A stretch of 38,629 nucleotides of DNA from Candidatus Staskawiczbacteria bacterium RIFOXYB1_FULL_37_44. Its GTDB lineage: Bacteria; Patescibacteriota; Minisyncoccia; Minisyncoccales; Staskawiczbacteraceae. The notes under the pieces were generated by a model. The model did no database searches and was not told the DNA's origin. It saw only the letters and a program-made list of their open reading frames with translations. The stretch spans positions 1 to 38,629 of the forward strand of contig MHPJ01000009.1 of NCBI GenBank assembly GCA_001822065.1. The letters are read 5' to 3'. This document shows, piece after piece, positions 211-19,215 of this stretch (positions within the stretch are counted from its first letter, which is position 1; every line of letters begins with the position of its first letter). The position numbers and the translations under genes are program-made.

Positions 211-1026
211 ATGAAATATCCTAATTTTAATGAGGAAAAAAAATTGTGGCGCAAAGGATATAAATGTGTTGCGGGCATAGACGAAGCGGGAAGAGGACCG
301 CTGGCGGGACCGGTTGTGGCGGGCGCAGTAAACTTTATGCCTGGTGTCATTGCGAGGAGCGAAGCGACGAAGCAATCTATGGTATGTACAAAAAACTCTG
401 GATTGCCACGCCCCGCTTTGGCGGGGCTCGCAATGACGGGTATAAAAGACTCTAAAAAGTTGACAGAAAAACAAAGAGAAGAAATTTACGAAGTTTTAAT
501 AAAACATCCAGAGGTTAAATGGGGGATTGGCATAGTTTCAGAAAAAGTTATAGACAAAATAAATATTTTACAGGCCACAAAACTGGCAATGCAAAAAGCT
601 CTTATTGATTTGGAATTGTCATTCCCGCGAAAGCGGGAATCTATAGTATTAGCCGAAGAATCCTGGATTCTCAATCAAGTTGGGAATGACGTCGCGAAAA
701 TTGATTTTGTTCTGATAGACGGGAATTTTAAATTAGATTTAAAGGAAGCCGCCTTCGTCAAAGGCTATGGCGCGCCAAAGCAAAAAAGCATTATAAAGGG
801 CGACCAAAAAGTTTTTTCAATTGCCGCAGCTTCCATTATAGCCAAAGTTACGAGAGACAGAATAATGCAAAAAATGCATAAAAAATATCCGCAATATAAT
901 TTTGTAAAACATAAGGGCTATGGCACAAAGGCTCATTTTGAAAGCTTGGAAAAATTCGGACCTTGTAAAATTCATAGAAAGACATTTTGGCCGGCTTGCG
1001 TTTGTTTACAAAAAAAGTTAAAATAA
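211..1026 (+). CDS. rnhB: Ribonuclease HII with two in-frame palindromic-element insertions
   Basis: RNase HII removes RNA from RNA-DNA hybrids and cleaves at misincorporated ribonucleotides. The N-terminal motif GIDEAGRGPLAGP (about residues 23-35) carries the catalytic Asp-Glu pair. GIKDSKKL, VLIDGNFKLDL and the KVTRDRIM region are also typical. At 271 aa the protein is longer than usual, because two segments do not belong to the family: residues about 46-76 (VIARSEATKQS...LAGLAMT) lie between the glycine-rich loop and GIKDSKKL, and residues about 136-160 (LSFPRKRES...GNDVA) lie just before VLIDGNFK. Both are translations of palindromic repeats and keep the frame. The catalytic motifs are intact, so the enzyme is probably functional with two surface loops. 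It heads the block leading to rpmF, nusB, rnc and rpsP. Confidence 0.95.
   Translation: MKYPNFNEEKKLWRKGYKCVAGIDEAGRGPLAGPVVAGAVNFMPGVIARSEATKQSMVCTKNSGLPRPALAGLAMTGIKDSKKLTEKQREEIYEVLIKHPEVKWGIGIVSEKVIDKINILQATKLAMQKALIDLELSFPRKRESIVLAEESWILNQVGNDVAKIDFVLIDGNFKLDLKEAAFVKGYGAPKQKSIIKGDQKVFSIAAASIIAKVTRDRIMQKMHKKYPQYNFVKHKGYGTKAHFESLEKFGPCKIHRKTFWPACVCLQKKLK
346..437 (+). repeat. Palindromic element family A, copy 1, inside rnhB
   Basis: The element begins GTCATTGCGAGGAGCGAAGC and ends GGCTCGCAATGAC, so its ends are inverted copies. The centre has AGCAATCTATGG and later GGATTGCCACGCC, which is another inverted pair. It lies in the rnhB reading frame, starts at a codon boundary and contains no stop. 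Related copies are at 4955, 11746, 17410 and as the arms of 18827-19215. Confidence 0.9.
618..690 (+). repeat. Palindromic element family B inside rnhB
   Basis: It begins GTCATTCCCGCGAAAGCGGG and ends GGGAATGAC. Inside it, GGAATC and GGATTC form a second inverted pair. It resembles the ATTCCC-N8-GGGAAT type repeats known from other bacteria (for example dRS3 of Neisseria), but is clearly different from family A. It is read through in frame in rnhB. Confidence 0.85.
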
Positions 1027-3209: not shown

Positions 3210-3626
3210 ATGCTCACAATCAGACTTACAAGAAAAGGAAAAAAGAACCAGCCATTTTTCAGAGTGGTTTTGGTGGACAAAAGAAGATCGTCAACCGGCG
3301 GAAGGGCTGTTGAGGATTTGGGTTATGTTGATCCTTTGAAAAAGAGGAAAAGTTTTAAAAAAGAAAGGATTTTATATTGGATTTCAAAAGGAGCCAAACC
3401 AAGCGCGACAATTCATAATTTATTGATTTCAGAGAAAATTGTTGACGAGAAAAAAGTTAAAATTTTTAATATCAGCAAGAAAAAGCAAACAGAAATATCG
3501 AAAGCGAAAACAGATGCCGCCGCCGTCATTGCGAGCGAAACAAAGAAATCTCAACCCTCAATGGAAGAGGCTAAACCCGAAATACCAGCCGAAACCCCGC
3601 CAGCAGGAGAGAAAAAACAAATATAA
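3210..3626 (+). CDS. rpsP: 30S ribosomal protein S16 with repeat-derived C-terminal tail
   Basis: S16 is an essential protein of the small ribosomal subunit. MLTIRLTRKGKKNQPFFRVV, then VVDKRR-like VLVDKRRSS, then EDLGYVDPLKK and RILYWISKGAKPSATIHNLL are diagnostic and cover about residues 1-80. The remaining 55 residues are a low-complexity Lys/Ala/Glu/Pro tail. Inside it, VIASETKKSQP (about residues 109-119) is the translation of a half copy of palindromic family A. S16 with disordered tails is known in this kind of genome; a repeat-derived part is the odd feature. The gene ends the block and is followed by a terminator at 3654-3679. Confidence 0.95.
   Translation: MLTIRLTRKGKKNQPFFRVVLVDKRRSSTGGRAVEDLGYVDPLKKRKSFKKERILYWISKGAKPSATIHNLLISEKIVDEKKVKIFNISKKKQTEISKAKTDAAAVIASETKKSQPSMEEAKPEIPAETPPAGEKKQI
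3535..3567 (+). repeat. Partial family A element in the rpsP tail
   Basis: GTCATTGCGAGCGAAACAAA followed by GAAATCTCAACCC matches the left arm of family A (GTCATTGCGAGCGAAG...GCAATCT), with drift. No right arm is visible. It is read in frame in the rpsP C-terminal extension, so it is probably an old, decayed copy. Confidence 0.6.
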
Positions 3627-4948: not shown

Positions 4949-4954
4949 ATTATC

Positions 4955-5049
4955 GTCATTGCGAGGAGCCCGCAGGTCGAAGATCCTGTAAGGGCGACGT
5001 GGCAATCTATAACTCCGGATTGCTTCGTCGCTTCGTTCCTCGCAATGAC
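4955..5049 (+). repeat. Palindromic element family A, copy between khpA and trmD
   Basis: Full-length copy: it begins GTCATTGCGAGGAGC, has GGCAATCTATAACTCCGGAT in the centre and ends CGTTCCTCGCAATGAC. It ends eight bases before the trmD start codon and therefore forms the trmD leader. Confidence 0.9.
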
Positions 5050-5057
5050 AACGGAGA

Positions 5058-9890: not shown

Positions 9891-11732
9891 CTAATTTACA
9901 ATTCGCCAGTAATTTAATTTGTAGGTTGAATTTAATACCGGGCAGTATGGCGGAGGCGCGCTTAAAAATCCGCTGTCATAGTTAAAGTTCCAATTTTGGT
10001 ATCCTGCGGGCTGGCTATTGCCAAAATAGCTTTTGCCATTGCTTATAAACGATCCAAAGGTTGTGAGAGTACCTTTATCTGTGTCTCTGCAATCTGCGTC
10101 CGAGCTGCAAGTAACGCCTGTGACGTTTATGCATAATCCGCTGTTGCAGGTGCCTCCGGTGTAGGTAAGGCGTCCAATGCTTTTGTATTGAGTAATCAAT
10201 GATCCGTCAACTTCAAGGTTGGCAGGAGCGTCGTGTGATATTAAAATATAATTTTGTGAAATTAATCCCAAGGCGCATAAGCCGTTGCAGGCGCTTGTGT
10301 TGTAAACAAGATTGTTTGGAATAAATATGGACGGAAAAACAGTATAACCGCCGTTATATGGCAAGGTTGCAGCCGCAACTGTTACCCTGCCTTTTACTGT
10401 GCCTTCCACCCAGACATTGCGATATCCGTTTTCAACATAAATTACAAAATCGTTTTCCGGAATAACAAAACTTTCTCCAGAGCAAGTGGCTCCAGCCACG
10501 GTGTTGCATATTACTTTGGTTCTAGTTACGTAATCTGTTGAATCTGTAGAATGGCTGGTTGTTTGCCCATTAGTGCCTGTGCCATCCAAATAAACAGCAT
10601 CGGTGTATGCAGGGCTTAATGTGTTAACTTTATAAACATCAAAAGTGCCTTCGGGGTTAAATACAATAGAACATCCGTTATTGCCTCCTGCAACTGCGTT
10701 CAAATTAATATATCTGGTATTGGCAGGCGTAGTTATTCCAATATAATAGCCATAGTAGCCTATTGTGCTATCGGTTTTGGCTTTTATTGTGCCCAAAACT
10801 CCATCACTTATTGTGGATGTCCATGTTATGTCTGCGTCTAATGGTTCTGTCCACCAGCTTTTTGCGCTGGTTGTTGAAACGCCAGCGCAATCATCGTCCG
10901 TTGAACAGGCTGTGCCAGTGTTTCCGCCGATAATACAAGTGCTTGTTGTTGAGTCGCACGTTGTAATGCTTGCGCAGTCGCTATCTGCCGAACAAATTTT
11001 TTTTGTTGATGCTGGCGTTCCATTTATAGTGCATTGGTTTGATGTGTTGCAATAAGTGTTAAATATAGCGGGCATTGCGGCTGCGCCGTCGCAGGGCATA
11101 TTGTCTTCAACCGGACAAACATAAGTTGAGTAGGTTGAGCAGTCGCTATTGGCGCATTTTTGAGAAATTATAGAGGCGCTTGCTGTGGGTATAACATCTC
11201 TAACTCCGCTGGTAGAATAAAACTTGCCTCCAATGTTTGTAAAAATATAACCTGGGCTGTTGGTTAAAACCGCATATTGCGCTACGGAGTCTCTGTAGTA
11301 TTTTGCCTCAACTGTCCTTTTGACATTTGGATATTCATTTGTCCAACCCGTTGATTGGACAATTATATTGTCAGCTCCCTGTGGCGGCTGGATTATATGC
11401 AATGAAAAATAACCAATTACTTGTTGGGTTTCGGTATCTGTGTAGTCGCGCGCAGGAATGTCATATGCCTGCTCCGTTGCGCCGGCAAGATCGGTTGCGC
11501 CGTCGTCATTGTAGTCGCCCGGAAATTTAATAAAATGCCATTCATAATAATTTCTTCCGGCTTCCGCAATTTGAAAAGCCTGCTCTCTGGCAATTGAAAG
11601 CTTTAAGAGTTGCATTCTGGAAATAAGGCTTGCAACAACAGGAATCATTATCATTGTAAAAATAAAAATAATAATTATTACAAAAATAATTAAACTGCCT
11701 TTTTGTTTTGATTTTGATTGTTCTAGTTTCAT
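9891..11732 (-). CDS. PilX-like minor pilin with cysteine-rich outer domain
   Basis: The 613-aa protein begins with a positive stretch and a pilin-like hydrophobic helix (KQKGSLIIFVIIIIFIFTM, about residues 8-26). QAFQIAEAGRNYYEWH (about 49-64) is the PilX/GspK-type signature in which residues follow the helix. There is no glutamate at +5, as in PilX/GspK proteins. The rest is extracellular. It contains repeats of a CSxDxDC type motif (CSADSDC, CSTDDDC, CSSDADC), polar beta-rich sequence and a late GLISQNYILISHDAPANLEV stretch. The true start is probably ATG 11732. The frame is open further upstream, but that part is only a family A repeat. It would belong to the tip complex with the two other minor pilins. 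Confidence 0.8.
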   Translation of the reverse strand: MKLEQSKSKQKGSLIIFVIIIIFIFTMIMIPVVASLISRMQLLKLSIAREQAFQIAEAGRNYYEWHFIKFPGDYNDDGATDLAGATEQAYDIPARDYTDTETQQVIGYFSLHIIQPPQGADNIIVQSTGWTNEYPNVKRTVEAKYYRDSVAQYAVLTNSPGYIFTNIGGKFYSTSGVRDVIPTASASIISQKCANSDCSTYSTYVCPVEDNMPCDGAAAMPAIFNTYCNTSNQCTINGTPASTKKICSADSDCASITTCDSTTSTCIIGGNTGTACSTDDDCAGVSTTSAKSWWTEPLDADITWTSTISDGVLGTIKAKTDSTIGYYGYYIGITTPANTRYINLNAVAGGNNGCSIVFNPEGTFDVYKVNTLSPAYTDAVYLDGTGTNGQTTSHSTDSTDYVTRTKVICNTVAGATCSGESFVIPENDFVIYVENGYRNVWVEGTVKGRVTVAAATLPYNGGYTVFPSIFIPNNLVYNTSACNGLCALGLISQNYILISHDAPANLEVDGSLITQYKSIGRLTYTGGTCNSGLCINVTGVTCSSDADCRDTDKGTLTTFGSFISNGKSYFGNSQPAGYQNWNFNYDSGFLSAPPPYCPVLNSTYKLNYWRIVN

Positions 11733-11745
11733 ATTTTTAGTATTC

Positions 11746-11838
11746 GTCATTGCGAGGAGCGAAGCGACGAAGCAATCTATGGTATATGTTCCGAACTCCT
11801 GGATTGCCACGCTCACCTGTGGGTTCGCTCGCAATGAC
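11746..11838 (-). repeat. Palindromic element family A, copy in the pilus operon
   Basis: A full copy with ends GTCATTGCGAGGAGCGAAGC and TTCGCTCGCAATGAC, and a centre with GCAATCTATGG and GGATTGCCACGC. It fills the gap between the 558-aa pilin and the PilX-like gene and overlaps neither predicted coding region. Confidence 0.9.
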
Positions 11839-11845
11839 GGGGAAG

Positions 11846-17398: not shown

Positions 17399-17409
17399 TT
17401 TTAGTGAGC

Positions 17410-17485
17410 GTCATTGCGAGGAGGTCGCAACCGACGAAGCAATCTAAAGTATTTTAGAGATTGCTTCGCTGCGGCTCGCAATGAC
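17410..17485 (-). repeat. Palindromic element family A, short copy
   Basis: Ends are GTCATTGCGAGGAGGTCGC and CTGCGGCTCGCAATGAC; the centre has GAAGCAATCTAAAGTATTTT and GATTGCTTCG. At 76 bp it is shorter than the other copies. It fills the space between pilC and the giant pilin gene. Confidence 0.9.
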
Positions 17486-17493
17486 GGGAAAAG

Positions 17494-18826: not shown

Positions 18827-19215
18827 GTGTCATTGCGAGCGAAGTTCGCCCTTCGGGCGACGAGCGCGGCAATCCAGAGTTAAAACTTTTCAGATCGGTC
18901 ATTCCATGTTGGATTTTCTTTTTCAATCAGCAAAATCTTTTTCTTTCGCGACCACGATTTAATCTGTTTTTCTCTTTCTATGGCGACGTTTACATCCGTT
19001 GTTTCTTCATAATAAACTAAATTGTGAACATTATATTTTTCAGTAAATCCCTTTATTAAATTATTTTTATGTTCGTAAATTCTTCTTTCCAAGTTGTCGG
19101 TAACGCCAACATATAATGTTCCGTTTCGTTTACTGGCTAAAATGTATACATAATATGTTTTGCTGGTCATACTCTGGATTGCCACGCCCCGCTGCGGCGG
19201 GGCTCGCAATGACAC
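18827..19215 (-). mobile_element. Candidate mobile element: family A arms around a GIY-YIG gene
   Basis: The left arm starts GTGTCATTGCGAGC (18827-18840) and ends GGCAATCCAGAGT (18868-18880). The right arm starts ACTCTGGATTGCC (19171-19183) and ends GCTCGCAATGACAC (19202-19215). Each pair is exactly reverse-complementary. The arms are the two halves of a family A repeat, and the 291-nt GIY-YIG gene exactly fills the space between them. No target-site duplication is obvious. Confidence 0.75.
18880..19170 (-). CDS. GIY-YIG endonuclease (COG2827/UPF0213 type)
   Basis: The 96-aa protein is a stand-alone GIY-YIG nuclease domain: YYVYILASKRNGTLYVGVTD (GIY and YIG motifs at about residues 6-22), the catalytic arginine in NLERRIYEHKNN, and a conserved glutamate in AIEREKQIKSWSRKKK. 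Its ATG (19168-19170) touches the right repeat arm and its TAA (18880-18882) touches the left one. The frame continues upstream from a GTG inside the right arm, but those residues are just repeat translation. It sits between pilB and pilC, where it is unlikely to serve the pilus. A nicking or homing role for the surrounding element is inferred. Confidence 0.88.
   Translation of the reverse strand: MTSKTYYVYILASKRNGTLYVGVTDNLERRIYEHKNNLIKGFTEKYNVHNLVYYEETTDVNVAIEREKQIKSWSRKKKILLIEKENPTWNDRSEKF

Follow-up and report, generated by a model that had tools for sequence, protein, structure and literature searches.

A palindromic repeat translated within RNase HII of a Staskawiczbacteria genome, and GIY-YIG nucleases as candidate agents of its spread

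The RNase HII gene (rnhB) of Candidatus Staskawiczbacteria bacterium RIFOXYB1_FULL_37_44 contains a palindromic DNA element which is translated as part of the enzyme, raising the question of how such an element came to lie in the frame of a working gene. Here, we analyzed the element in its window (a stretch of 38,629 nucleotides, contig MHPJ01000009.1), in the 836-kb genome, and at related loci of other bacteria.

Palindromic inserts in rnhB and other coding genes

The rnhB gene (211..1026, forward strand) was delimited as an open reading frame of 271 aa with two palindromic inserts and was characterized by Pfam and AlphaFold2. Its product matches the RNase_HII family of Pfam (5.3e-30), the match being split into three stretches. 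The first insert is a short element of family A with YGTCAT ... ATGACR ends (345..438, forward strand; 94 nt, outer Y/R bases included), the frame is open across it, and its translation VIARSEATKQSMVCTKNSGLPRPALAGLAMT makes up residues 46–76. The preliminary description had placed a complete family A element at 346–437 in the rnhB frame, and apart from the slightly wider boundaries this holds. The ends form a perfectly complementary inverted repeat (GTCATTGCGAG at 346–356 and CTCGCAATGAC at 427–437), belonging to a left arm hairpin, TGTCATTGCGAGGAGCGAAGCGACGAAGCAATC (345..377), and a right arm hairpin, GATTGCCACGCCCCGCTTTGGCGGGGCTCGCAATGACG (401..438), both given on the forward strand. The single-strand fold of the element has a z-score of −4.85.

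For comparison, RNase HII was examined in 27 relatives from the same genus, family or order, and a peptide of the VIARSEATKQSMVCTKNSGLPRPALAGLAMT type was absent from all of them (27/27). GPLAGPVV and DSKK are 42 residues apart in the rnhB product versus a median of 19 in the relatives (range 16–42), and those relatives with a long spacing carry unrelated sequence there. Subtracting the 31 inserted residues leaves 11, which is below every relative and suggests that part of the native loop was lost. Consequently, the earlier figure of about 31 added residues is correct for the translated segment (46–76), but the net gain amounts to only about 23 residues.

The AlphaFold2 model shows a core with pLDDT >90 (pTM 0.82), while both inserts are of low confidence, the insert residues reaching a pLDDT of about 46–57. 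Such low values are expected of disordered loops, here on an intact enzyme core. Furthermore, D24, E25, D170 and D198, presumably the catalytic acidic residues, are invariant among 20 sequences, in line with the catalytic motifs having been kept. The open frame and the intact core would also be compatible with a normal RNase HII segment kept by selection in the host lineage; no relative has these residues, the DNA is a repeat present elsewhere in the genome and the segment is modelled as a disordered loop, so that this reading is refuted by the present results and hardly credible.

The second insert in rnhB is a family B element, TGTCATTCCCGCGAAAGCGGGAATC ... GGGAATGACG (617..691, forward strand), whose family has 20 arms in the genome; at its position the RNase HII of relatives has a short loop or other inserts. 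Repeat-like peptides such as RQAQGE were also noticed in RNase HII loops of relatives (L043, L048, L049, L059, L061, L065), and these loops therefore seem repeat-tolerant. One relative's rnhB (L068, G017) carries an intein-like insert of roughly 380 residues directly after GLDEAGRG.

Beyond rnhB, the uvrC gene of the same genome holds two family A inserts, and the uvrC of a relative has an apparently independent insert in the same loop. In-frame insertion in coding genes was accordingly found in rnhB and twice in uvrC, with relatives lacking the inserts. A half copy with only the left arm (3524..3549, forward strand) is translated within the C-terminal extension of an ORF reading as ribosomal protein S16 (rpsP; AAVIASETKKSQPS).

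The dispersed repeat and the genes between its arms

When the genome was searched with the full rnhB element, dozens of places matched, and 32 distinct two-armed short copies with outermost tags could be extracted from them; the comparison with other family A copies proposed earlier thus confirmed a dispersed DNA repeat. The window contains 11 occurrences of the 11-mer end motif, versus 0.31 expected. Short family A copies (forward strand) lie in intergenic DNA at 4954..5050 and 17409..17486, and another (11745..11839) at the 5′ end of a pilus-type ORF (9891–11834, reverse strand), possibly upstream of its true start. The left arm of the rnhB element recurs at 11745 and, inverted, at 5018–5050. 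Among 37 copies, the base beside TCAT is G at 74/74 ends, followed by Y at 73/74, and no direct repeat beyond chance, as a target-site duplication would leave, was observed at these copies. An intron or structured RNA at the insertion was ruled out, a tRNA being the only Rfam match in the window.

The same type of arms was found around a gene. A full-length element (18828..19214, reverse strand), recognized by its outer and a 17-nt inner inverted repeat, contains a GIY-YIG nuclease gene of 96 aa (18880..19170, reverse strand; Pfam GIY-YIG, PF01541, 2.7e-18) between one arm at 18828..18874 and the other at 19171..19214 (forward-strand coordinates). The ATG of the gene directly follows ...CCAGAGT and its TAA overlaps ACTCTGG..., so that the inner boundaries are those of the short copies; both the outer and the inner inverted repeats are common to short copies and GIY-YIG elements. 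The 43-nt stretch holding the right arm of the rnhB element is 95% identical to the arm of this element at 19171–19213. That the same arms enclose the GIY-YIG gene at 18828–19214 suggests how the rnhB insert arrived.

In the genome as a whole, this exact enclosure by arms is seen at five intact GIY-YIG genes and at a broken one; of the intact genes, four have family A arms and one has family B arms. Family A arm pairs are either 72–136 bp long without a gene or 354–396 bp long with a GIY-YIG gene, and among the arm pairs of the genome no other gene was found between family A arms. Neither a remote GIY-YIG paralogue nor uvrC of the same genome is enclosed by arms. The GIY-YIG copies of the genome show dN/dS values of 0.07–0.17; the nuclease is under purifying selection.

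In their architecture the elements resemble several known systems. With MITEs and their parent insertion sequences they share short copies that bear the terminal inverted repeats of a longer, gene-bearing form, but here neither a target-site duplication nor a known transposase is seen. Like REPIN/RAYT systems they combine short palindrome dimers with a single gene that has these palindromes on both sides; the tag is GTAG there and GTCAT (YGTCAT ends) here, and the gene encodes a Y1 tyrosine transposase there and a GIY-YIG nuclease here. They are also like the CGTC-tagged REPs (Di Nocera 2013), including dRS3 of Neisseria, which have the same unpaired CGTC/TGTC tag at the end, the same A-T as first stem pairs, the same head-to-head dimers and intragenic copies. 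The family B hairpin, ATTCCCGC-GAAA-GCGGGAAT, with its 8-bp stem and 4-base loop fits the CGTC-1 plan, whereas the longer, interrupted family A hairpin (5 bp, internal loop, further stem) differs from the 8–9 bp stem and 4–5 base loop of these REPs. Another difference is the GIY-YIG gene itself, since the survey which defined the CGTC REPs reported no dedicated transposase gene (PMC3733652).

The likeness to Rickettsia palindromic elements pointed out in the preliminary description holds in kind: dispersed palindromes are translated in frame in protein genes, including repair genes, and RPE-4 and RPE-6 are members of the CGTC-tagged REP superfamily (PMC3733652), the shared tag described there being the only link. 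The lineage differs, Patescibacteria here, with a linked GIY-YIG gene. The different lineage and the essential-type enzyme are less of a surprise than supposed, because in-frame REP insertions of 20–30 residues in DNA-repair genes of other lineages have already been described (PMC3733652). The rnhB insert is accordingly a further example of in-frame REP insertion, and the GIY-YIG partner is the part that is new to us.

Arms and nucleases across bacteria

At 73 homologous loci from many phyla, GTCAT upstream together with ATGAC downstream (≤130 nt) was present in 47, compared with 0–6 of 54–70 loci at control offsets. A 12-nt inverted match between the upstream and the downstream flank was found at 38/73 loci and at none of the controls (0/67, 0/60 and 0/55; 0/182 altogether). 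About a third of the GIY-YIG homologues are without arms recognizable by the simple test. Left and right arms match each other far better at the same locus (4.72 of 6) than across loci (2.86 of 6, p < 5e-5), and arm type covaries with protein similarity (Mantel r 0.37, or 0.30 without pairs ≥70% identical, shared ancestry not being corrected for).

Within the genus, arms are absent at 15 remote GIY-YIG paralogues (28–43% identity); close homologues have them. The remote paralogues of genus and family, devoid of palindromic arms, often lie beside tRNA-like sequences (L174, L175, L178–L181, L184, L186, L202–L204). Both the close nuclease and the family A repeats are patchily present in genus and family. 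Among 36 genomes of the family, family A arms occur in 7/7 genomes with a close GIY-YIG gene versus 7/29 without one (Fisher p 4e-4). The main exception is the relative G039, which has 159 arm matches and neither an arm-enclosed nor a close GIY-YIG gene.

In more distant bacteria, the homologue of N. gonorrhoeae (55% identity to the GIY-YIG protein of the window) lies among dRS3-like repeats, surrounded by GTCATTCCCGC...GCGGGAATC repeats, and arms were also found at homologues in Azospirillum, Rhizobium sp. CIAT894, Shinella and Aeromonas. In Azospirillum lipoferum, the GIY-YIG gene and its arms separate sufB from sufC, which stand close together and without the element in three relatives. The Azospirillum gene lies between two complete dimers, not inside one, and these are the only matching dimers in 50 kb. 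The 50-kb regions of Azospirillum provide an empty locus; a base-exact junction, and hence a base-exact empty site, was not found in them. Five 50-kb regions of Rhizobium plasmids contained no complete elements and therefore yielded no empty sites, and phages and viral contigs offered no useful relatives.

Two further observations concern the surroundings of the homologues. At L091, L096, L118 and L130 (Nitrospirae-type genomes) about 100 nt of element flank are common between the loci, as if these GIY-YIG elements were nested in a larger repeat. At L150, on a Planktothrix plasmid, a GIY-YIG gene and CTGA-type repeats lie between the gene of a type IIL restriction enzyme and drmA of DISARM.

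How the elements may spread

We consider it somewhat probable that the rnhB insert is a MITE- or REPIN-like copy and that the GIY-YIG nuclease mobilises both the long and the short forms. The insert would then be a non-autonomous short copy of a CGTC-tagged palindromic element, whose autonomous form would comprise about 390 bp with two hairpin arms, YGTCAT...ATGACR ends and a single gene for a nuclease of ~96 aa. We infer that the nuclease binds its own type of arm, probably as single-strand hairpins, and that its cut at the tag would lead to movement of long and short forms with insertion proceeding without target duplication. A short copy that happens to enter a surface loop in frame, as seen for RnhB and UvrC, would add a floppy peptide that the protein tolerates. 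Because the same arms surround its gene here and in many other phyla, the GIY-YIG nuclease is a good candidate for the enzyme which spreads CGTC-tagged repeats. Against its role as a mobiliser stand the arm-rich relative G039 without a close nuclease, the third or so of homologues whose arms the simple test does not recognize, and the position of the Azospirillum gene between two dimers. Moreover, a base-exact empty site was not found, and GIY-YIG enzymes are not known to us to act as transposases.

The chief rival, which we regard as rather unlikely, is that the GIY-YIG gene parasitizes the repeats. As a homing-type nuclease, its product would cut the palindromes and copy its own gene into their spacer, the palindromes would spread by other means and the nuclease would not have brought the insert to rnhB. 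GIY-YIG enzymes are classic homing nucleases, and the best NCBIfam match of the present protein, although below the cut-off, is a group I intron endonuclease. The covariation of arms and protein is as much in keeping with adaptation of a nuclease to its target as with a mobiliser, and G039 shows that many repeats can be present with no close nuclease. However, no other gene was found between family A arms, so that homing would require an unseen mobiliser. No genome of the family has a close nuclease and lacks the repeats, which speaks for mobilisation by the nuclease, but homing predicts the same.

It is improbable that repeats and nuclease are kept by selection because they serve the host, for instance by limiting or steering DNA uptake, instead of spreading selfishly. 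Purifying selection on the nuclease and the repeats around the N. gonorrhoeae homologue would be consistent with such a function, as would Ssn of Neisseria (2025), reportedly a GIY-YIG single-strand nuclease that has a repeat as its target and influences transformation. The patchy presence in genus and family and the inserts in rnhB and uvrC suggest spread rather than design, although both ideas can hold. Ssn, too, is a small GIY-YIG protein with a link to a repeat, but it is said to be a transformation modulator, not a mobile element that has short copies in frame in genes; the Ssn family tied to Neisseria repeats may comprise the same enzymes as the arm-enclosed nucleases.

RAYTs are thought to move GTAG-tagged REPs, the palindromes look REP-like, and the genome has three Y1_Tnp matches with one short element copy near one of these Y1 fragments; movement by a tyrosine (Y1/HUH) transposase is nevertheless very improbable, as family A or B arms enclose none of the Y1 genes. 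The best of these genes (L224) has on its flanks a palindrome of its own, GTTGAAGTCAGACTTCAAC, which is unrelated to both families, and in the 2013 survey CGTC repeats were not found to flank any tyrosine transposase (PMC3733652). None of the three matches being arm-enclosed, a Y1 partner is unsupported.

Returning to mobilisation by the nuclease, a wider reading, for which we would give slightly less than an even chance, is that GIY-YIG nucleases are the dedicated mobilisers of bacterial CGTC-tagged REPs, including dRS3 and some Rickettsia palindromic elements. If true, this would define a class of minimal mobile elements that consist of hairpin arms and a single nuclease gene, have no transposase and produce no target duplication; their short copies would be a source of new peptide segments in essential proteins. 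Many bacterial phyla contain CGTC-tagged REPs, and the agent of their spread has been an open question since the 2013 survey (PMC3733652). As that survey found no transposase, the association of arms and GIY-YIG genes would answer the question in outline, if this has not already been done in the work on Ssn. A gene lying between the arms across phyla, with arms that track the protein, makes the question testable with a protein of 96 aa and ~90 nt of DNA, and a positive answer would name the engine for the in-frame insertion of peptides into working enzymes.
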